Assembly (NCBI GenBank): GCA_016790515.1
Contig: JAEUOY010000114.1
Location: 1 to 63,767, forward strand
Source: Burkholderiaceae bacterium
GTDB taxonomy: Bacteria > Pseudomonadota > Gammaproteobacteria > Burkholderiales > Burkholderiaceae_C
DNA: 63,767 bases
Direction: 5' to 3'
Under the pieces are notes generated by a model that saw only the letters and a list, made by a program, of their open reading frames with translations, was not told the origin of the DNA and searched no databases. This document shows, in pieces, positions 49,366 to 60,734 of this stretch. Within the stretch, counting starts at the first letter, position 1. Each line of letters opens with the position of its first letter. Made by a program: the position numbers and the translations under genes.

Positions 49366-51687
49366 TCAGCGCTCGCCGAGCAGGCTGCCGCCGCCGGCCG
49401 CCCGGCCCCGGTCGGCCACCGATTCGCCCAGGATGAAGCCTTCGCCGAGGATGAAACCCTCGCCCAGGATGAAGCCTTCGCCGAGGATGAAGCCGCTGCC
49501 CAGCGTCAGGCCCTCCGCGAGGATGAAGCCCTCGCCGAGGATGAAGCCATCGCTGAGGATGAAGCCGCTGCCCAGCAGCCGCTGCTGCGCCACCGTCAGG
49601 CCCTCGGCCAGGATGAAGCCCTCGCCGAGGATGAAGCCGTCGCTCATCACCCGGCCGCCGCCGGCCGCCGCGCGGCTCGACACGGTGGCGGTGGGCGTGA
49701 ACAGCCCGCTGGCCTGCGGCGCCGAATTGGGGCCGGCCAGGCCGTCGAGCAGCAGCACCTGCGGCGTCAACAGCGTCTGCGCGGCGGCGTTGGTCTCGAC
49801 CACCGACTCGACCACCGTGTTGGTCAGGATCGCCCGGCCCGCGCTGCGGTACTGCACCGTGTTGCGCAGCGCCACCTGGCGAACCCAGGTCAGGCCCGGG
49901 TCGTAGATCGGCTGGAAACTGGTGAACAGCGCGTCGCCGCTGACCAGGTGGCCGCCACCGGCGTAGACGATGCGGCCCCAGTGGAAGGCCTGGCCGTTGA
50001 GCGTCGACCAGGGCGCCGGCAGCAGCTTGCCGGGCGCCAGCAGCGGGTCGCCGGCCTTGATCCAGCCGGCGGCCAGCGCCCAGCGGATATCCTTGCGCAG
50101 CGCCTTGGCCAGCCGTACCGCGCCCTCGACGTTCAACTGCCCCGCGCCCTGCTGCAGCAGGTTGGCGTCGGCCAGCGGCTGAGCGGTGTACTGCAGGATC
50201 GCCTTGACCAGCGGCGGCGTCAGCCCCGGGTTGACCTGCAGCAGAATCGCCGCGGCGCCGGCCACCGCCGGGGCCGAGACCGAGGTGCCGCTGAGCTGCA
50301 TCAGCGCCTGGCCCGGTGCCTGCGCCGCGCCCATGTCGCGGGCGTCCTGCATCAGCGACGGGTAGAGCGTGGCGAGCAGGTTGCCGGTGGGTGCTGCCTC
50401 GCCGGCCTGCGCCGCCGCCGCGCCGAGCAGCCGGTTGCCCGGGGCCACCAGGTCGGGCTTGAGCAGGTTGTCGGTCCAGCGGCTGCCGGCCGCGCCGTTC
50501 GGCGGCAGCAGGCTGCCGCGGGTCGGCCCGCGCGAGCTGAAGCCGGCCAGCAGGTCGTCGCTGCGCAGCGCGGAGGCCCTGGAATTGACCGCGCCGACGG
50601 TGATCACCGACGGCTCGTGGCCCGGCGAGCCGATCGCGCCGTAGACCTCGACGCCGGCCTCGTTCTTGCCGGCGTTGCCGGCTGCAGCCACCACCACCAG
50701 GCCCGAGGCCACCGCGCTGCGCGCGGCACGGGCCAGCGGATCGACCAGGAACGAATCGGTCGAGTTGGCCGCCAGGCTCAGGTTCATCACCCGGATGTTG
50801 CAGGCGCGGGCGCGCTGCACTACCCAGTCGATGCCGGCCAGCAGGTCGGTGGTGTCGCCCACGCCGCGCTCGTCGAGCACCCGCACGTCGTAGAGCAGCG
50901 CCCCCGGCGCGACACCGGAGCTGTCGGGCAGCTGGTAGGCGCCGGCACCGGCGGCGATCGACGCCACATGGGTGCCATGGCCATAGGGGTCGGGCAGCTT
51001 GGCGTCGGGGGCCTTGGCGCAGACCAGCTTGTCGCCGACGCGGATCTGCGCGGCGGCCTTCTCGCTGTTGTCCTTGCCGCGGCTCCAGCCGTCGCCGTTG
51101 ATCGTCTTGCTCAGCGCGACGATGTCGACCGCCTGCACCACGCGCGAGCGGCCCGCCGGGCCCTGCAGGCTGCGATGGCGCCAGTCGATGCCCGAGTCGA
51201 GGACGGCGATGCCCACGCCGCTGCCGTCGGCGGCGGCGTAGCCGCCCAGCGGCGGCACCGCCGAGCTGCCGGTGGCGTCGGCCAGCAGGCTGCCCGAGCG
51301 CGAGATGGCCCGGTTCGGCGCGATCGCCAGCACGTCGGCGCGGCCGGCCAGCGCATCCAGCGCGGCCACCGGCACCAGCGCGGCCATCGCCCGCACCGAC
51401 AGGCCGACGTAGTAGACCGAGCCACCCTGCGCGAGGATGGCCTGGCGCAGCGAGGCCAGCGAGGGGTCGGTGCTCGAGGCGACGATCAGCACCTTGGCAT
51501 ACAGCTGACTGCCGACCTTCCTGGCCCAGGTGACGCTGGGCTTGGCGCTGCTGCCCATCAGCGCCGCGAGCTCGCTCGAAACCTTCGGGTGCGTGGCCTG
51601 GGCCGCGCCGGGGCCGGCGGCAGCCAGCGCGGCCACGCAGGCGGCCATCGAGATCAGGTGCTTCAGCTTCATTCGGCTGTTCGTCAT
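49366..51687 (-). CDS. S8 (subtilisin-like) serine peptidase with C-terminal GFIL hexapeptide repeats
   Basis: The 773-residue exported protease has a signal peptide (to GPGAAQ) and a short propeptide-like region. The catalytic domain has Asp164 (VLDSGID), His237 (YGHGTHVA), Asn338 (AAGN) and Ser469 (SGTSVSAP), with the peptidase insert DPYGHG. A ~150-residue linker follows, then a C-terminal array of nine GFIL[GAS][ED]-type hexapeptides at about residues 680-755 and a short tail LLGER. It is likely secreted or surface-held. ATG 51687 gives the signal peptide; a longer frame upstream does not resemble a leader. It is divergent from the adenine deaminase gene. Confidence 0.92.
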   Translation of the reverse strand: MTNSRMKLKHLISMAACVAALAAAGPGAAQATHPKVSSELAALMGSSAKPSVTWARKVGSQLYAKVLIVASSTDPSLASLRQAILAQGGSVYYVGLSVRAMAALVPVAALDALAGRADVLAIAPNRAISRSGSLLADATGSSAVPPLGGYAAADGSGVGIAVLDSGIDWRHRSLQGPAGRSRVVQAVDIVALSKTINGDGWSRGKDNSEKAAAQIRVGDKLVCAKAPDAKLPDPYGHGTHVASIAAGAGAYQLPDSSGVAPGALLYDVRVLDERGVGDTTDLLAGIDWVVQRARACNIRVMNLSLAANSTDSFLVDPLARAARSAVASGLVVVAAAGNAGKNEAGVEVYGAIGSPGHEPSVITVGAVNSRASALRSDDLLAGFSSRGPTRGSLLPPNGAAGSRWTDNLLKPDLVAPGNRLLGAAAAQAGEAAPTGNLLATLYPSLMQDARDMGAAQAPGQALMQLSGTSVSAPAVAGAAAILLQVNPGLTPPLVKAILQYTAQPLADANLLQQGAGQLNVEGAVRLAKALRKDIRWALAAGWIKAGDPLLAPGKLLPAPWSTLNGQAFHWGRIVYAGGGHLVSGDALFTSFQPIYDPGLTWVRQVALRNTVQYRSAGRAILTNTVVESVVETNAAAQTLLTPQVLLLDGLAGPNSAPQASGLFTPTATVSSRAAAGGGRVMSDGFILGEGFILAEGLTVAQQRLLGSGFILSDGFILGEGFILAEGLTLGSGFILGEGFILGEGFILGEGFILGESVADRGRAAGGGSLLGER
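49424..49647 (-). repeat. Hexapeptide-coding DNA repeats in the subtilase tail
   Basis: Eighteen-bp units coding GFIL plus a Gly/Ala/Ser and an acidic residue recur nine times in three groups of two, three and four copies, separated by LTVAQQRLLGS- and LTLGS-type spacers. The plus strand shows runs of GAGGATGAAGCC and CAGGATGAAGCC. The units stay in frame, so slippage would change protein length without a frameshift. Confidence 0.85.
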
Positions 51688-51890
51688 GAGGGGTCTCGGG
51701 GTTGATGAGCGGCGAACGGCGACATCCGGTACAGCCAGGGCCGGACGCACTTCGCCCGTCAGTGACATCGTCGGCGCCGGCGGTTTCTTGAGCGCCATTC
51801 GGACCGGGAGGGGTCCGAAGCGGTACTAGTTGGCAGAATCCTTGCGAGTTGCCGGCCTCCCGGCCTTCAGCCGCCCCCCAGGAGCCCCCG

Positions 51891-52949
51891 ATGACCGCTG
51901 CCTTGCCCCCGATGCCCCGCCACCTGCCGCCCGACCGACTCGCGTCACTGCTGCGCAGCGCGCCCAAGTCCGAGCTGCACATCCACATCGAAGGCTCGCT
52001 CGAGCCCGAGCTGATCTTCCGGCTGGCGCAGCGCAACGGCGTCGCGCTGGCCTACCCCAGCGTCGAGGCGCTGCGCGCGGCCTATGCCTTCGCCGACCTG
52101 CAGAGCTTCCTCGACATCTACTACGCCGGCGCCAGCGTGCTGATCGAGGAGCAGGACTTCTTCGACATGGCCTGGGCCTACTTCGAGCGCGCCGCCGCCG
52201 ACCAGGTCGTGCATGCCGAGCTGTTCTTCGACCCGCAGACCCACACCGCGCGCGGCATCGACATCGGCGTCGTGATCGGCGGCCTGCACCGGGCCTGCGA
52301 GCAGGCGCGCTCGGCGCTGGGCATCGACGCCAGCCTGATCCTGTGTTTCCTGCGCCACCTGAGCGAGGACGAGGCGCTGGCCACGCTGCAGGCCGCGCTG
52401 CCCTACCGCACGATGTTCATCGGCGTCGGTCTGGACAGCAGCGAGCGCGGCCATCCGCCGCAGAAGTTCGCCCGCGTCTTTGCCGAGGCCGGTGCGCTGG
52501 GGCTGCATCGCGTCGCCCATGCCGGCGAGGAGGGGCCGCCGGCCTACATCGAAGGCGCGCTCGACGTGCTGCAGGTCGAGCGCATCGATCACGGCGTGCG
52601 CTGCGTCGAGAACCCGGCGCTGGTCGCGCGGCTGGCTGCCTCGCGCATGCCGCTGACGGTGTGCCCGCTGTCGAACGTCAAGCTCCGCGTGTTCGCCACG
52701 CTGGCCGAGCACAACCTGCCCGCGCTGCTGGCGGCCGGCCTGTGCGCCACCGTCAACAGCGACGACCCGGCCTACTTCGGCGGCTACCTGAACGACAACC
52801 TCGTCGCCAGCTTTGCCGCGCTGCCGCAGCTGGGCGTGGCCGAGGCGTACCGGCTGCTGCGCAACGGCTTCGAGGCCAGCTTCGCGCCGGACGCCGACAA
52901 GGCCGGCTGGATCGCCCGCCTGGATGCGGCGTTCGCCGCGGCCGCCTGA
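51891..52949 (+). CDS. Adenine deaminase (adenosine-deaminase-fold type)
   Basis: The 352-residue protein of the Add superfamily has the metal ligands of ELHIHIEGSLEPE (residues ~28-34), HAGEEGPPAYIEGALDVLQVERIDHGVRCVE and VNSDDPAYFGGY. The HAGEEGPP-type segment and the PLSNVKLRVF ending are those of the bacterial subgroup that includes P. aeruginosa PA0148, characterised as an adenine rather than adenosine deaminase. It yields hypoxanthine for XDH. AGGAG (51880-51884) precedes ATG 51891. It is divergent from the subtilase gene, 203 bp apart. Confidence 0.9.
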   Translation: MTAALPPMPRHLPPDRLASLLRSAPKSELHIHIEGSLEPELIFRLAQRNGVALAYPSVEALRAAYAFADLQSFLDIYYAGASVLIEEQDFFDMAWAYFERAAADQVVHAELFFDPQTHTARGIDIGVVIGGLHRACEQARSALGIDASLILCFLRHLSEDEALATLQAALPYRTMFIGVGLDSSERGHPPQKFARVFAEAGALGLHRVAHAGEEGPPAYIEGALDVLQVERIDHGVRCVENPALVARLAASRMPLTVCPLSNVKLRVFATLAEHNLPALLAAGLCATVNSDDPAYFGGYLNDNLVASFAALPQLGVAEAYRLLRNGFEASFAPDADKAGWIARLDAAFAAAA

Positions 52950-53012
52950 AGCTTGCAGGCGCGGCCGCCGGGCGCTTGCGGTGCCGCCGCGGCTGCGCAC
53001 AATCGGGCCCCG

Positions 53013-55799
53013 ATGAGCATCATCGCTGCCGCCCACCCGGCCCACCCGGCCCACCCGGCCGCGCCGGCCGCGCCGGGCTTTGCGCTGACCAAGATCCAGC
53101 CGCCGCGCCCGCGCGGCCGGCTGATCGCCCGGCCGCGCCTCGAGCAGCAGCTGGCGCAGGCGCTGGCCATGCTGCCGCTGGTGCTGGTCAGCGCGCCGGC
53201 GGGCTTCGGCAAGACCGCCGCGATCGCGCGCCAGGTCGGCCAGCTGGGCGCCGGCACCGCGCTGGCCTGGATCGCCGTCGACGAGGACGACGACCTCGGC
53301 CGCCTGGCGGCCTGCGTGGTTGCCGCGCTGGAACCGTTCGACCTGCCCTGGCGCACCTCGCCCGAGGCGCTGGTGGCGATGCAGGACGGCCAGCGCGAAG
53401 CGCGCCAGGTGCTGGCCAGCGAACTGCTGAACGCGCTGGCGGCCACCGATGTGCCGCGCGGGCTGATCGTGTTCGACGACCTGCACCGTGTCACCGACCC
53501 TGCGGTGTTCGAGTGGCTGGATGCGCTGCTCGAGCGCCTGCCGCCGCATTGGGGGCTGCTGATCGCCGGCCGCGCCGACCCGCCGCTGGCGCTGGCCCGG
53601 CTGCGCGCGCGCGGCGAGCTGGCCGAGTTCCGCCAGGACGCGCTGCGCTTCGACGACGACGAGGTCGCCGACCTGGTGCGCCTGCGCGCCCAGGGCCTGC
53701 CCGCTGGCGCCGGCGATGCGGCGCTGCCCGAGGCGGCGCGTGCGCTGCTGGGGCGCACCCAGGGCTGGCCGGCCGGCATCAACCTGGCGCTGGCGCACAG
53801 CGGCCGGCCCGGCGCGGCCGGCCAGCCGGCACCGGCGGGCAGCCTGCTCGAACGCCATGTCTTCGACTACCTGACCGTCGAGGTGCTCGACAACCTCGAG
53901 CCGGCGCTGCGCGACTTCCTGCTGCGCTGCGCGGTGCTGCCCGAGCTCAGCCTGTCGCGCTGCGTCGCGGTCTCGGGCCATAGCCCGGCGCAGGCGGCGC
54001 GGCAACTGGAGGAGATCGAACGCCGCGGCCTGTTCGTCTCGGTGCGGGGGGCCGATGCGGGCAGCGAGACCGTGCTGTGCCTGCACGACCTGTTCCGCGA
54101 CTGCCTGGCACAACGCCTGCGCAGCGAGCTGCCCGGTGAATGGCCGCGCCTGCAGCGCCTGGCCGCCGACAGCGAGCCCGACCTGGTGCGCCGGGTCGGC
54201 CACCTGGCGCGCGCCGCCGACTGGCCCGCTGCCGAGGCCGCGCTGTATGCGCAGGGCCCCAGCCTGCTGGCGCGCGGCGCGGTGCAGCCGCTGCTGCGGC
54301 TGATCGAGCAGTTTCCGGCCGCCGTGCGCGAGGCCTCGCCGCGGCTGGCCCACCTGCGCGGCCTGTGTGCCTGGGCGCACTGGGACATCCTGACGATGTG
54401 CCAGTGCCTGGCCCAGGCCGCCGACGGCCATCAGCGGCACGGCGACCTGGCCGCCGCCCAGCGGGCGCGCTCGCTGCTGGTGCTGGGCCTGTCGGCCGGT
54501 GGCCAGGTGCCACGCTCGGTGGCGCTGCTGGCGCAGCTGCGCCGGCAGACCATGGACCTCGACGCCGAGGTCACCGCCTGGCAGGCCGAGAGCTGGCATG
54601 CGCTGGCCGCTTCGCGCACCGGCGACGTCGCCGCGCCGCTGGGCCGGACGATGGAACTGCTGGCGCGCAGCGACGACCCGGTGCTGTGGCTGCAGGCGGT
54701 GCCGCTGACCTCGTTCGTCGGCCTGCCCGGCACCGCGCCGGCGATCCAGCGCTACATCGACGGCGCGCTGCGGCTGATGCCGGAGGAGCCGCCGTCGACG
54801 CTGCGCGTGATGGCGCACGCGCTGCAGGCCGGGTTGTGGCTGGGGCAGGGCCGGGTCGAGGAGGCCGCGTCAGGGCTCGCCCGCGTCGATGCCGACCGGC
54901 GCTGGCTGAACCGGCCACCCAACCTGAGCGGCTACTACCACCTGTTCCTCGGCCTGACCCAGGCGGTGCTGGGCCGGCGCGAGGCCGCGCTGGCGGCCGC
55001 GCAGGCGCGGCTGGACGGCCTCGACGACGAGCGCACCAGCGGCCGCCGCGAGGTCTGGCTGAACCATTTCCTCTATGCCCGCCTGCGCCTGGCGATGATG
55101 CTCGACGACGCCGCCACGGTGCAGGCGATGGCCGACGCGCTGGCGCTGCGCGCATCGCCCCAGGAGCTGCCGTTCTTCGTGCGCGAGCGCCGGCCGCTGG
55201 CCGGCCACCAGGCGGCGCTGGCCGGCCATTGGGCCGACGCGGCGCTGCACTACGCCCGGGCGCTGGACGACGAGCCGGGCATCGACCTGTACGGCCAGGT
55301 GATCGAGACCCGGCTGCGCTGCGCGCACGCGCTGGTCATGACCCGCCGTCTCGACGAGGCCGCCGCGGTGCTGCGGCCCTTGCCCGGCCGCCTGGCTGCG
55401 GCCGGCGGCCACGGCGCGGTGTTCTTCGCCGGCAGCCGGGTGCTCGCGGGCCTGGCCGCCGTGCCCTGGGGGGCGCGGCTCGCCGCCGGCGAGGCGCAGG
55501 CCTTGCAGCATTGGTCGCGGCAGTTGCACGGGCTGCGCGGCCGGCCCGACGCCCGGCCCGAGGTGCCGCCGGCGTCGGCCGGCGCGCGGCCCGAGGCCGG
55601 GCCGGTGCTGAGCCCGCGCGAGGCCGAGGTGCTGGCGCGCATGGCCGCCGGCGACAGCAACAAGCTGATCGCCCGCGCCTTCGACCTGAGCCCGCACACC
55701 GTCAAGCGGCACGTGGCCAACATCCTCGACAAGCTGGGCCTGAGCTCGCGCGGCCAGGCGGCGGCCTGGTACCGGGGCCAGCGCAGCGGGAACGGCTAG
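53013..55799 (+). CDS. MalT-like STAND/LuxR transcriptional regulator (copy 1)
   Basis: The 928-residue protein opens with AHPAHPAHPAAP-type repeats, then a MalT-like NTPase with Walker A APAGFGKTAA (~61-70) and Walker B GLIVFDDLH. Winged-helix and helical arm regions (FVSVRGADAGSETVLCLHDLFRDCL) and a TPR-like region follow. The C-terminal LuxR HTH is SPREAEVLARMAAGDSNKLIARAFDLSPHTVKRHVANILDKL. It binds ATP and an inducer, then activates promoters; inducer and targets are unknown. Its HTH-coding DNA is identical over 111 bp to that of the convergent second regulator. The stop overlaps the 96-aa gene's stop. Confidence 0.92.
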   Translation: MSIIAAAHPAHPAHPAAPAAPGFALTKIQPPRPRGRLIARPRLEQQLAQALAMLPLVLVSAPAGFGKTAAIARQVGQLGAGTALAWIAVDEDDDLGRLAACVVAALEPFDLPWRTSPEALVAMQDGQREARQVLASELLNALAATDVPRGLIVFDDLHRVTDPAVFEWLDALLERLPPHWGLLIAGRADPPLALARLRARGELAEFRQDALRFDDDEVADLVRLRAQGLPAGAGDAALPEAARALLGRTQGWPAGINLALAHSGRPGAAGQPAPAGSLLERHVFDYLTVEVLDNLEPALRDFLLRCAVLPELSLSRCVAVSGHSPAQAARQLEEIERRGLFVSVRGADAGSETVLCLHDLFRDCLAQRLRSELPGEWPRLQRLAADSEPDLVRRVGHLARAADWPAAEAALYAQGPSLLARGAVQPLLRLIEQFPAAVREASPRLAHLRGLCAWAHWDILTMCQCLAQAADGHQRHGDLAAAQRARSLLVLGLSAGGQVPRSVALLAQLRRQTMDLDAEVTAWQAESWHALAASRTGDVAAPLGRTMELLARSDDPVLWLQAVPLTSFVGLPGTAPAIQRYIDGALRLMPEEPPSTLRVMAHALQAGLWLGQGRVEEAASGLARVDADRRWLNRPPNLSGYYHLFLGLTQAVLGRREAALAAAQARLDGLDDERTSGRREVWLNHFLYARLRLAMMLDDAATVQAMADALALRASPQELPFFVRERRPLAGHQAALAGHWADAALHYARALDDEPGIDLYGQVIETRLRCAHALVMTRRLDEAAAVLRPLPGRLAAAGGHGAVFFAGSRVLAGLAAVPWGARLAAGEAQALQHWSRQLHGLRGRPDARPEVPPASAGARPEAGPVLSPREAEVLARMAAGDSNKLIARAFDLSPHTVKRHVANILDKLGLSSRGQAAAWYRGQRSGNG

Positions 55800-56324
55800 A
55801 CCGGAAGCGTGTAGACGTCGGCGGCGCTGCGCTCGGCAGCGCTGTGGCCTTCGAGCGCGCGGTCCCATTCGGGGCCGCTGGCACCGGTGGTCGGCACCAG
55901 GCCGGCCGTCATCTGCGCCGTCTCCTCGGTGCCGGCGTCGAACTCGGCCACCGGTTCGCGCGTCTCGAGGAACAGCCGCGAGACGGTGGTCCCGCCCGAG
56001 TCGATCACCACCAGGTAGCGCGCCGGCCGGCGATGCGGGGTCAGGGTGTGGGGGCGGGGCGACTCGCCGCCGAAGACTTGGCTCATGGGCCGATCTTGCC
56101 ATGCCGGGCCGGCTTGCCGGAAGGGCGGGCGCGCCACAGCGGCGCGCGCCCGGCGTCAGCCGCCGACCATTTCACGCCAGCGGGCGGCGGCCTGGCCGCG
56201 GGTGTCGACGCCGAGCTTGTCGAGGATGTTGGCCACGTGCCGCTTGACGGTGTGCGGGCTCAGGTCGAAGGCGCGGGCGATCAGCTTGTTGCTGTCGCCG
56301 GCGGCCATGCGCGCCAGCACCTCG
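55625..56324. repeat. 111-bp perfect inverted repeat joining the two LuxR genes
   Basis: Bases 55625-55735 (plus strand) are the exact reverse complement of 56214-56324, by base-by-base reading. Each copy encodes the same ~37 residues (EVLARMAAGDSNKLIARAFD onward to DKL) at the same reading phase, in the HTH of regulator 1 and regulator 2. The 478 bp between the arms (55736-56213) hold the last ~20 codons of each regulator and the whole 96-aa gene. The rest of the two proteins differs widely, so the identity points to recent gene conversion or duplication of this segment. See findings for a possible inversion switch. Confidence 0.92.
55796..56086 (-). CDS. Small hypothetical protein between the two regulators
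   Basis: The 96-residue protein reads RYLVVIDSGGTTVSRLFLETREPVAEFDAGTEETAQMTAGLVP with an acidic, Ala-rich C-terminus. I recognise no domain beyond a conserved-looking small soluble protein; similar short proteins occur in Burkholderiales as hypothetical. ATG 56086 is preferred over 56137. It is transcribed in the direction of the second LuxR gene, 69 bp downstream of it, and lies inside the segment flanked by the 111-bp inverted repeat. Stops of this gene and of regulator 1 overlap (CTAG). Confidence 0.68.
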   Translation of the reverse strand: MSQVFGGESPRPHTLTPHRRPARYLVVIDSGGTTVSRLFLETREPVAEFDAGTEETAQMTAGLVPTTGASGPEWDRALEGHSAAERSAADVYTLPV

Positions 56325-58846
56325 CGTTCGCGCTCGGTCAGGCCGGACAGGCGCTCGCCGGCCGGAGCGTTGCGGCCTGGGGCGCCGCCAGCGGCCGCCG
56401 GCGGCGCCGGCGCGGTGCCGCCGGCCGCCGCCAGACGCTCCAGGCGTGCCAGCAGCGCCTGCTCGTCGTCGCCCAGCCGGCGTCCCCAGCCGGCGCCGGC
56501 CAGGCGCTGCAGCACCGGCCGGCCGGCCAGCAGCGCGCCGCCGACATCGCCGCCGTCCAGCGCCGCGGCCAGCCAGGGTTGCAGCGTCGCCGCGGCGTCG
56601 TCGATCGCGCCGCGCCGGACCTGCACGTCGGCCAGCATCAGCCGCGCCTGCGCCGCCGGGAAAAAGCAGGACCGTTCGAGGTCGGCCGCCAGCGGCTGCA
56701 GCAAGGCCTGCGCGTCGGCCAGGCGGCCGTCCAGCAGCGCCAGCATCGCCCGGGCGAACGCCCGGTCGGATTCGGCGGCGGCCCATTCGAAGGGGTTGCC
56801 GGTGCGCTCGAGCGCCGGCGCCAGGGCGCGCAGCAGGGTCTCGTCGCCCAGCACCCAGGCGGCGCGGAGGAAGGTGAACAGCTCCTCGTACTCGTGCGTC
56901 AGCCGGTTGGCACGCAGCGCATGCTCCTCGAGGTCGCGCTTGTTGTCCTGCGCCGCGGCATAGCTGGCGGTGCGGTCGCCACGCACCGCGTCGATCAGCG
57001 TGTGCGCCATCCAGTTCTCGGTCATCAGGCTGCGCGGGCGGCCGAGCCAGCGGCAGTCGTCGTCGGCGCGCGCCAGCCAGACGGCGGCTTCGTCGATGCC
57101 GCCCTGCGAGAACGCCAGCCAGGCGCGGATGTGCATCACGCCGGCGCGCAGCTGGGTCGGCTGCTCGCCGGTCAGCCGCATCGCGCCGTCGGCAAAGCGC
57201 TCGAGCAGCGGCCGCAGGCCGGGCAGGCCGGTGAGGATCGACAGGAAGAAGCAGCGGTCCCAGTCCTGCACGTCGTCGGCGGTCTCCAGCGCGTCGAGCA
57301 TCGCCGCCACATGCTGCGCGACGTCCTCGCCGCGGCCCTGGGCGTAGGCGCCCCAGGCATTGCAGAAGCCCACGAAGGCGCGCACGCCGTCGGCCAGCGG
57401 CTGTTCGCGCAGCCGCGCCAGCGCGGCCACGCTCTCGGCCAGCGCGCCGGTGTTCTGCCGGCCCAGGCTGGCGTAGGCCCGGGCCAGCGCCGCCAGCGCG
57501 GCCTCGCCGGCAGCGGCGTAGCCGTCGGCGGCGCGCTGCATGCCGTCGACCATGGTCTCGAAATCGAAGCGCGGGAACGCCGCGCCGCCGCGCAGCAGCT
57601 GCAGCCCCGGCCGCGTCGCGACCTGCTCGGGCGGGAACTGCGCCAGCATCTGCTCGACCGCCGGCCCGCCGCCGCGGGTGATCAGCGCCGCGCCGCGCTC
57701 GACCAGCAGCCGCGTCGCCTCGTCCCAGGCGCCGGCGCGGGTCAGGTAGCCGACCGCGCGCACCAGGTCGCCTTCGTGGTCGGCCGCGCGGCGCAGCAGG
57801 TAGGGCAGCTCGCCGGGAAAGTCGCGCTGCAGCCGGCTCTCGAGGAAGTCGCGAAACAGGTCGTGCAGCCGCAGCGTCAGCTCGTCGGCGTCGAGGGTGG
57901 CGACGAACAGGCCGCGGCGTTCGACCTCGTCGAGCAGCCGCGCGGTGTTCGGCAGCCGCGCGACATGCTCGCAGCGCGCCACGCTCAGCTCGGGCAGCAC
58001 CGAGCAGCGCAGCAGGAACCAGCGCAGGTCGGCCGGCATGTCGGCCAGCACCTCGCTGGCCAGGTAGTCGAACAGGTGGCGCTGGGCCGGCCCGCCGGCG
58101 CCGCGCGTGCGCCCTGCGCCGGCCTGGGCCGACAGGCTCAGCCGCAGCCCGGCAGCCCAGCCATCGGTCAGCGCCAGCAGCTCGCGCGCCGACGGCGCCG
58201 AGGCTTCCAGGCCGCTGCCGCGCAGCAGCGCGCCGACCTCGGCCTCGCTGAAGCGCAGGTCGTACTGGCGGAACTCGGCCAGGTCGCCGCTGGCCCGCCA
58301 GCGGGCCAGCGACAGCGGCGGGTCGACCCGGCTGGCGATCGCCACGCCCCAGTGCTCGGGCAGGCGCTCGATCACCGCCTGCAGCAGTTCGAAGACCTGC
58401 GGGTCGGCCAGCCGGTGGGCGTCGTCGATCACGATCAGCCCGCGCGCGACCTCGGTGGCCGCCAGCGCGTTGACCAGCTCGCGGGCGACGTCGCGCAGCC
58501 CGTGCTCGGCCTGCGCCAGCGTGCCCAGCGCCTCGGGCGAGACGCGCCAGGGCAGGTCGTGCGGCTCCAGCGCCGTCGTCAGGCAGGCCAGGAAGCGCTG
58601 CAGCCGGTCGTCCTCGTCGACCGACACCCAGGCCAGCGCACTGCCGTCGCCGAGGCGCCGGATCTGCCGCGTCAGCGCGGCGGTCTTGCCATAGCCGGCC
58701 GGGGCCACCAGCAACGTCAGCCGGTGGTGGCGCAGCGCGATGTCCAGCGCCTGCTCCAGCGTCGGGCGTTCGACCAGGCTGGTGCGCGATCGCGGCGGCT
58801 GGATCTTGGCCAGCGCGAACGCGGTGGGCGAGTCCATCGACAGCAT
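56156..58846 (-). CDS. MalT-like STAND/LuxR transcriptional regulator (copy 2)
   Basis: The 896-residue paralogue of the protein at 53.0 kb has Walker A APAGYGKTAA (~48-57), Walker B GLIVIDDAHRL, a MalT-like winged-helix region (LRLHDLFRDFLESRL) and a long TPR-like region. A LuxR HTH at the C-terminus follows TEREREV. ATG 58846 (MLSM) or the internal ATG 58837 are both plausible. It is divergent from the hemerythrin gene by 205 bp, so that operon may be its target (inference). Confidence 0.92.
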   Translation of the reverse strand: MLSMDSPTAFALAKIQPPRSRTSLVERPTLEQALDIALRHHRLTLLVAPAGYGKTAALTRQIRRLGDGSALAWVSVDEDDRLQRFLACLTTALEPHDLPWRVSPEALGTLAQAEHGLRDVARELVNALAATEVARGLIVIDDAHRLADPQVFELLQAVIERLPEHWGVAIASRVDPPLSLARWRASGDLAEFRQYDLRFSEAEVGALLRGSGLEASAPSARELLALTDGWAAGLRLSLSAQAGAGRTRGAGGPAQRHLFDYLASEVLADMPADLRWFLLRCSVLPELSVARCEHVARLPNTARLLDEVERRGLFVATLDADELTLRLHDLFRDFLESRLQRDFPGELPYLLRRAADHEGDLVRAVGYLTRAGAWDEATRLLVERGAALITRGGGPAVEQMLAQFPPEQVATRPGLQLLRGGAAFPRFDFETMVDGMQRAADGYAAAGEAALAALARAYASLGRQNTGALAESVAALARLREQPLADGVRAFVGFCNAWGAYAQGRGEDVAQHVAAMLDALETADDVQDWDRCFFLSILTGLPGLRPLLERFADGAMRLTGEQPTQLRAGVMHIRAWLAFSQGGIDEAAVWLARADDDCRWLGRPRSLMTENWMAHTLIDAVRGDRTASYAAAQDNKRDLEEHALRANRLTHEYEELFTFLRAAWVLGDETLLRALAPALERTGNPFEWAAAESDRAFARAMLALLDGRLADAQALLQPLAADLERSCFFPAAQARLMLADVQVRRGAIDDAAATLQPWLAAALDGGDVGGALLAGRPVLQRLAGAGWGRRLGDDEQALLARLERLAAAGGTAPAPPAAAGGAPGRNAPAGERLSGLTEREREVLARMAAGDSNKLIARAFDLSPHTVKRHVANILDKLGVDTRGQAAARWREMVGG

Positions 58847-59028
58847 GGGCCGATTCTGCAGCAGTGCCGGCCGCGCCGAAGCGCCGGTCGCGCAGCTCGC
58901 CGGGGAGGGTCCATGGCCCATCCCCCCGAACGGGGTGGCCCTGCGCCGGCAGCGCGGCTGGCTCCTTCGGGCGATGTGCCGGGGCGGGGCGTTTTCGACA
59001 CTGAAGGCCTTCCCACCACCGACCCGAA

Positions 59029-59046
59029 CCCCCCCCCCCGAAGGAG
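59029..59046 (+). promoter_or_regulatory. Poly-C tract adjoining the hemerythrin ribosome-binding site
   Basis: Eleven consecutive C residues (59029-59039) directly precede GAAGGAG (59040-59046), the ribosome-binding site of the gene starting at 59052. Homopolymeric C tracts of this length can slip during replication; here slippage would change leader length and spacing but not the reading frame. Confidence 0.7.
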
Positions 59047-59051
59047 CCGAG

Positions 59052-59789
59052 ATGACCACCGCCACCCTGACCCGCGACCCTGCCGTCACCCGCACCGCGC
59101 CGCGGCTCGACCTCTATGCGCCGATCCACAAGGCGCTGCGCAGCTGCATGATGGACACGCTGATGCGCATCGGCCGGCTCGACGTCGGCGACGCTGCCGA
59201 GATGCAGGCCACGCTGGGCCAGTTCGACGCGCTGCTGCAGCTGTGCAGGTCGCACCTGCAGCACGAGAACGAATTCGTGCACCCGGCGATCGAGGCCCGC
59301 GAAGGCGGCCGCTCGCGGCGCATCGCCGGCGAGCATGTCGAGCACCTGGCCCACATCGACGCGCTGCGCGACGAGGCGACGGCGCTGCGCGCGGCCGAGG
59401 GCGAGCGGCGCCAGCTGCTGGCGCTGCGGCTGTACCGCCACCTGGCGCTGTTCGTCGCCGACAACTTCCAGCACATGCAGCTGGAGGAGACCGTGCACAA
59501 CGCCAGCCTCTGGGCGCACTACCGCGACGAGGAACTGGCCGCGCTGCACGACCGCCTGCTGGCCAGCGTGCCGCCGGTCGAGATGCTGAGGGTGCTGCGC
59601 TGGATGATCCCGGCACTGAACCCGGCCGAGCGCGCCGCGCTGGTCGGCGGCAGGAAGGCCGGGATGCCGCCCGAGGCGCTGTTCGGCCTGCTCGACCAGG
59701 TGCGTGCGCACCTGGACGAGCGCGGCTGGGACAAGCTGGCGCGTGCGATCGGCGTGCCGCAGCAGCCCGGGCTGGTCGAAGTCGCCTGA
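59052..59789 (+). CDS. Hemerythrin domain-containing protein
   Basis: The 245-residue helical protein has spaced His/Glu/Asp residues consistent with a di-iron hemerythrin-like four-helix bundle: HLQHENEFVHPAIEAR, GEHVEHLAHIDALRDE, FVADNFQHMQLEETVHN. The C-terminal part is a second helical region (LRWMIPALNPAERAALVGGRKAGMP), as in the hemerythrin-HHE proteins of Burkholderiales. Likely functions are O2, NO or redox sensing or iron handling; not settled. AGGAG (59042-59046) precedes ATG 59052. A cytochrome gene follows 45 bp downstream. Confidence 0.82.
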   Translation: MTTATLTRDPAVTRTAPRLDLYAPIHKALRSCMMDTLMRIGRLDVGDAAEMQATLGQFDALLQLCRSHLQHENEFVHPAIEAREGGRSRRIAGEHVEHLAHIDALRDEATALRAAEGERRQLLALRLYRHLALFVADNFQHMQLEETVHNASLWAHYRDEELAALHDRLLASVPPVEMLRVLRWMIPALNPAERAALVGGRKAGMPPEALFGLLDQVRAHLDERGWDKLARAIGVPQQPGLVEVA

Positions 59790-59805
59790 GCGCAGTCGCC
59801 GCCAT

Positions 59806-59815
59806 CCCCCCCCCC
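59806..59815 (+). promoter_or_regulatory. Poly-C tract upstream of the cytochrome c gene
   Basis: Ten consecutive C residues lie in the 45-bp gap between the hemerythrin and cytochrome genes, ahead of the GAGGAG site (59821-59826). With the tract at 59029 this is the second poly-C run in two successive leaders; both could vary by slippage. Confidence 0.65.
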
Positions 59816-59834
59816 ACGTCCGAGGAGCATCGAC

Positions 59835-60734
59835 ATGAAGCGCTGGATCAAGACCTCGCTGGCGGCCGTGGCCAGTCTCGCCGCACTCGGCGCCGCCACC
59901 CTGGCAACGGGCGCCTGGCTCGGCGAGCGCAAGGCCCAGCGCCGCATCGAGCTCGCCGTCGCGCCGGTGGCGGTGCCTGGCGACGCCGCCGCAATGGCCC
60001 GTGGCCGCTACCTGTTCGCCAGCCGCGGCTGCGTCGATTGCCACGGCGCCGACGGCGCCGGCCGCGCCTTCATCGACGCCGGCGGTTTCTACGTCAAGGC
60101 GCCGAACATCAGCCCCGGGCCGGGCAGCGTGGTCGCCGGCTACCGCGCCGAGGACTGGGTGCGCACCGTGCGCCACGGTGTCAAGCCCGACGGCCGGCCG
60201 CTGTTCATCATGCCCGCCGAGGACTACAGCCGCTGGAGCGATGCCGACCTCGGCGCGCTGGTGGCCTGGCTGCGGCAGATGCCGCCGGCCGCCGGCGGCG
60301 GCATGCAGGCGCGGGTGCCGGTGCTGGTGAAGGTGCTGTATGCGGTCGGCGTGATCCGCGACGCCGCCGAGAAGATCGACCATCGCCAGCGGGCGCCTGC
60401 GGTGGTGGCCGCCGACGGCTCACCGGCCCACGGCGCCTACGTCGCCGCGATGTGCGTCGGCTGCCACGGCGCGACGCTGACCGGCGGCAAGATTGCCGGC
60501 GCCCCCCCGGACTGGCCGGCCGCGGCCGACCTGACACCGGCCGGCAGCGCGATGGCCCGTTACCCCAGCGCCGAGGCCTTCATCGCGATGCTGCGCAGCG
60601 GCCGCCGCCCGGACGGCAGCGCCGTCAGCAAGGTGATGCCGTTCGAGTCGCTGCGCGAACTGGACGACGCCGACGCCCGGGCGCTGTACCGGCACCTGCG
60701 GCAGCTTGGGCCGGTGCAGGTGGCGGCGAACTGA
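59835..60734 (+). CDS. Di-haem c-type cytochrome
   Basis: The 299-residue protein has an N-terminal signal anchor (MKRWIKTSLAAVASLAALGAATLATG) and two CxxCH haem sites, CVDCH (Cys66-His70) and CVGCH (Cys207-His211). Each is followed by a candidate axial-Met region, IMPAEDYSRWSD and VMPFESLRELDD. The layout resembles the di-haem cytochrome subunits of alcohol/aldehyde dehydrogenase-type complexes and stand-alone periplasmic electron carriers. It is co-directional with the hemerythrin gene; the two probably form one operon. Its electron donor is unknown. Confidence 0.9.
   Translation: MKRWIKTSLAAVASLAALGAATLATGAWLGERKAQRRIELAVAPVAVPGDAAAMARGRYLFASRGCVDCHGADGAGRAFIDAGGFYVKAPNISPGPGSVVAGYRAEDWVRTVRHGVKPDGRPLFIMPAEDYSRWSDADLGALVAWLRQMPPAAGGGMQARVPVLVKVLYAVGVIRDAAEKIDHRQRAPAVVAADGSPAHGAYVAAMCVGCHGATLTGGKIAGAPPDWPAAADLTPAGSAMARYPSAEAFIAMLRSGRRPDGSAVSKVMPFESLRELDDADARALYRHLRQLGPVQVAAN

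Follow-up and report, generated by a model that had tools for sequence, protein, structure and literature searches.

The DNA analysed here belongs to a Burkholderiaceae bacterium (GCA_016790515.1), whose genome is a draft assembly of 176 contigs that is 82% complete. The window, by which we mean the whole stretch under analysis, comprises positions 1 to 63,767 of the forward strand of contig JAEUOY010000114.1, and contains two convergent genes for LuxR-type regulators that share a perfect inverted repeat. The features of the locus are as follows.

51849..52949, forward strand: adenosine deaminase, upstream of regulator 1 (PF00962, 2e-86)
53013..55799, forward strand: regulator 1, predicted MalT-like LuxR-family regulator with a C-terminal GerE HTH (GerE, 4e-17)
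55625..55735, forward strand: first arm of the inverted repeat, in the HTH codons of regulator 1; reverse complement of 56214-56324 without a mismatch
55736..56213, unstranded: 478-bp spacer, containing both regulator tails and a small gene
55796..56086, reverse strand: the small gene, of 96 aa, with no Pfam match at 1e-3
56214..56324, reverse strand: second arm of the inverted repeat, in the HTH codons of regulator 2; exact reverse complement of the first arm
56156..58846, reverse strand: regulator 2, likewise predicted to be MalT-like and of the LuxR family, running towards regulator 1 (GerE, 1e-16; AAA_22, 5e-8)
59052-59789, forward strand: hemerythrin-domain protein, divergent from regulator 2 (PF01814, 9e-6)
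59835-60734, forward strand: cytochrome c, divergent from regulator 2 (PF13442, 1e-16)

Both regulators have the LAL (large ATP-binding LuxR) architecture, being approximately 900 aa long with an N-terminal ATPase and a C-terminal GerE HTH. The models for both domains match regulator 2; regulator 1 is matched by GerE alone, with no ATPase model in the Pfam search at a cut of 1e-3, and aligns with regulator 2 over its full length, the nucleotide-binding loop PAGFGKT included. The start of regulator 1 was set at the ATG at 53013, and the mechanical list of open reading frames also offers a TTG upstream, at 52953. Further upstream, on the reverse strand, a large protein (49366-51798) carries repeated GFILGEGFILAEG-like units at its C-terminal end (49424-49638), which show up as direct repeats of 32 and 29 bp.

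Only one relative with the same convergent regulator pair was found, Rubrivivax pictus W35 (G003, NZ_BJCL01000002.1). Its block has the same order of genes, namely adenosine deaminase (75% identity to the window protein), regulator 1 (69%), regulator 2 (68%), hemerythrin (68%) and cytochrome c (74%); orthologues of regulator 2 in five genomes of other genera are 61-71% identical. The first genome survey (29 genomes with matches) scored two candidates per genome and could have missed pairs. A second survey took in as many as 34 candidates per genome from 27 genomes, made up of 24 of those 29 genomes together with G005, G008 and G009. Side-by-side matches were present in R. pictus alone among these 27 genomes. 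In a tree of the N-terminal parts, each window regulator pairs with its own R. pictus orthologue (support 100/100 and 100/99), which places the duplication of the regulators before the split of the two species.

Regulators of this family are often found near hemerythrin and/or cytochrome c genes. Of the 40 distinct regulator loci compared, 12 gave hemerythrin matches and 13 gave matches to cytochrome c; the loci near one or both genes include window positions 58846-60734 and L097, L105, L116, L120, L125, L130, L135, L136 and L137, among others. This frequent proximity suggests that MalT-like regulators of the family may govern the hemerythrin/cytochrome c pair. Four contigs of another genome, G008, end at family regulators (L098, L099, L100 and L101), with 87-88% GC in the last 60 bases. 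Repeat collapse was rejected as the cause, since the longest exact match among these four ends and one end from G005 is only 23 bases; the breaks fall at GC-rich linkers just before the HTH and probably reflect coverage dropout, which would split such genes in draft assemblies.

The two arms of the inverted repeat are reverse complements at 111 of 111 bases, exactly as the initial annotation had placed them, and relaxed matching extends their similarity to 159 bp at 91%. No longer exact repeat exists in the window at a search length of at least 25 bp, where the only others found were the 32- and 29-bp direct repeats. Both arms lie in the same codon register within the C-terminal HTHs, so an inversion would swap the regulator tails in frame and bring the 96-aa gene onto the strand of regulator 1. 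The sequence thus bears out the geometry described in that annotation, and the arms bound a segment whose flip would alter genes, as in an invertible element.

An origin of the arm identity by chance in random sequence is excluded. The appropriate null is that of two paralogues sharing the constraint on the HTH and on codon usage, and measured against this the identity stands out as unusual. We compared the tract with the rest of the pair and with other pairs of the family. Upstream of the HTH the regulators are 41% identical (353 of 862 aligned residues), and equal residues are encoded by equal codons at 259 of 343 positions, with a longest run of seven identical codons. Inside the tract, codons are identical at all 35 testable positions. 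Sixteen other same-genome paralogue pairs, drawn from 31 family rows, served as controls; these share 369 of 459 tract codons, and the best of them reaches 28 of 31, so that local identity at the arms stands well above both the remainder of the pair and the controls. Apart from the arms, the longest exact run measures 65 nt among the 171 pairs of a 19-row set, and 83 nt, between close orthologues, among the 465 pairs of the 31-row set. The 31-row set, on which the 83-nt run, the position-specific codon test described below, the trees and the control pairs are based, lacks five members that were filtered out (G020C4, G001C41, G008C107, G005 and the fragment G008C96), all of which are in the 19-row set.

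How significant the arm identity appears depends on the null, with P ranging from 1e-7 to 0.03, because constraint on the HTH is strong and some of its codons show little variation across the family. Window codon usage gives P = 1e-7, and position-specific codon usage of the family gives P = 8e-6, an estimate that takes related rows as independent. Permutation of same-codon runs along the regulator pair (20,000 shuffles) yields P = 0.005, against a lowest value of 0.08 among the 16 control pairs. The mean control rate raised to the 35th power is 5e-4, and the best control rate treated in the same way, the weakest yardstick, is 0.03.

Constraint on the HTH and on codons accounts for part of the match between the arms, and it is conceivable in principle that parallel constraint produced all of it, with purifying selection common to both HTHs and strong codon bias keeping the segments identical without any copying. 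The 73% GC content, the position of the tract in the HTH, where constraint on the protein is greatest and residues are near-invariant family-wide, the many tract codons that are almost fixed in the family and the performance of the best control pair all point in that direction. We nonetheless consider this unlikely, as approximately 12 positions of the tract vary synonymously in the family, with odds of a match of about one half, and the arms agree at every one of them; complete agreement was seen in none of the 16 control pairs. It is more improbable again that the identity is an artefact of assembly, in which two similar, non-identical arms were collapsed into one sequence. Such an error could occur in a draft of this fragmentation and completeness, but the contig runs on through both arms, and the equivalent segments in R. 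pictus differ at 15 of 111 bases. Fifteen differences in 111 bases are more than assemblers usually merge.

We read the arm identity as the probable result of recombination. Our favoured explanation, in which we have good though not complete confidence, is that a recent gene conversion of approximately 111 bp homogenized the HTH-coding segment of two anciently diverged, convergent MalT-like regulators. The initial annotation had interpreted the synonymous-site identity in this way, and the codon comparisons with the upstream region and with the controls uphold that interpretation. Exact identity is confined to the tract, with ordinary paralogue divergence on either side, and the bases just outside follow the lineage of each regulator. 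In the single outgroup that has both genes, R. pictus, the arms have diverged (96 of 111 bases matching, across a 132-bp spacer with no gene between the regulators), and the identity in the window is probably younger than the split from that species. From this pattern we infer copying, for which homologous recombination between the inverted paralogous segments would be one route, transferring one HTH segment onto the other; polymerase template switching between the two inverted segments would be an alternative.

The sites within the tract are divided as to the donor, 21 favouring the regulator-1 lineage vs 18 the regulator-2 lineage. The single tract closest to the arms is that of the regulator-2 orthologue of G230 (106 of 111), beside which the arms are also placed in the tract tree, with local support of 0.88. 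Conversion does not appear to be a recurrent habit of the family, as no sign of it was seen in the third family copy of the window genome (93 of 111 tract bases), in the R. pictus pair or in a Piscinibacter pair (94 of 111). The Piscinibacter pair, in a metagenome-assembled genome (L136:3466-9670), consists of two family regulators in tandem, in the same direction. The consequences of the conversion for the proteins and for DNA binding were probably small, because the residues of the recognition helix are almost invariant across the family; even without it, the sites bound by the two regulators should be similar.

The stop codon of the 96-aa gene overlaps the stop of regulator 1 on the opposite strand, as CTAG. 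Homologues of the gene occur in six of 21 genomes of the genus, the window genome counted, and in the other five the match and the regulators are on separate contigs or some 100 kb or more apart; none was found in R. pictus. Judged from this one outgroup, arrival of the gene between the regulators in the window lineage is more likely than its loss in R. pictus.

The initial annotation had proposed above all that recombination between the arms could flip the segment 55736-56213, swapping the regulator tails and changing which regulator's transcript includes the small gene. The tails themselves do not support this. Just after the tract, all six regulator-1 relatives compared read SRGQ, as does window regulator 1, and all six regulator-2 relatives read TRGQ, as does window regulator 2. 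These relatives were chosen, and G054, which branches outermost in the regulator-2 clade and reads SRTE, was omitted. Search identity (57% and 56%), not the tree, placed L135 and L136 with the regulator-1 relatives; the remainder of this group is joined with G081, G192 and G269 at a tree support of 86/95, which is not starred. Over 46 bases, the regulator-1 tail has 34-35 matches to regulator-1 relatives vs 27-30 to regulator-2 relatives, and the regulator-2 tail has 29-39 to its own relatives vs 25-31 to those of regulator 1, with a slight overlap. As each window regulator retains the tail mark of its own lineage, the assembled orientation is the ancestral one and no net exchange has taken place. 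The picture would be identical if the segment had flipped an even number of times, or flipped only in a minority of the cells.

The comparison with R. pictus also speaks against a flip, since its pair is ordered and directed as in the window. The pattern named beforehand as contradicting inversion, diverged arms with a single orientation in relatives, is shown by this one relative. Neither exchanged tails nor both orientations were found among the twelve tails compared and the single relative that has the pair. A search limited to two recombinase families, PF00589 and PF00239, found ten tyrosine recombinase matches (PF00589) in the 82% complete assembly, none of them on JAEUOY010000114.1, and no serine recombinase match (PF00239) anywhere in it. 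Inversion by RecA only would require no local recombinase.

We thus consider an invertible switch at this locus very unlikely, even though the geometry is in frame, the conversion would imply at least one past recombination between the arms, and the perfect arms exceed the 15, 85 and 33 bp repeats described for the inverting SpnD39III locus (PMC7394358). The lineage marks of the tails, the one fixed arrangement in R. pictus, where the arms have diverged and enclose no gene that could be switched, and the lack of PF00589 and PF00239 matches on the contig weigh more heavily. Very small, too, is the chance of a low-frequency switch, in which exchange between the arms would keep them identical and now and then invert the spacer, the 96-aa gene alternating between the regulator transcripts at the hemerythrin/cytochrome c locus. 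A perfect inverted repeat within paralogous genes is by itself no evidence for a switch, and tails marked by lineage offer a simple comparative test for inversion.

Gene conversion between paralogues is a known process of which the window locus is probably a new example, of the ordinary kind limited to one domain. A close parallel is provided by the mtrA-1 and mtrA-2 genes of methanogens, described as undergoing domain-limited gene conversion that recurs across two orders (PMC4632066); there, too, one conserved domain of diverged prokaryotic paralogues is homogenized while the remainder differs, whereas the window locus would represent a single event, confined to one species, and affects the DNA-binding domain of a convergent pair. 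Convergent and divergent gene pairs of Caenorhabditis are reported to maintain inverted repeats (PMC1803023), and likewise combine inverted homologous genes with similar arms, but in a eukaryote, in several species and with long arms into which entire intergenic sequences are drawn; the window arms are 111 bp long and are not kept in R. pictus. Template switching between imperfect inverted repeats, the subject of PMC8604942 and PMC7202029, also homogenizes inverted arms and would supply the alternative copying route, although PMC8604942 concerns short repeats and the window arm is 111 bp with a spacer of 478 bp (132 bp in R. pictus).

No invertible pair of LuxR-family regulators was described in the titles and abstract openings returned by our literature search, which does not prove that none has been published. 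The inverting type I hsdS loci, for example SpnD39III, resemble the window locus in having perfect inverted repeats inside paralogues and an in-frame swap on inversion, but are described as exchanging target-recognition domains, often with a recombinase (PMC7394358); an inversion in the window would change approximately 20 tail residues, with no recombinase match on the contig and no exchange seen. The locus would represent a compact bacterial case of one-domain conversion between convergent paralogues, and a syntenic relative without the conversion makes such an event between inverted genes both datable and testable.
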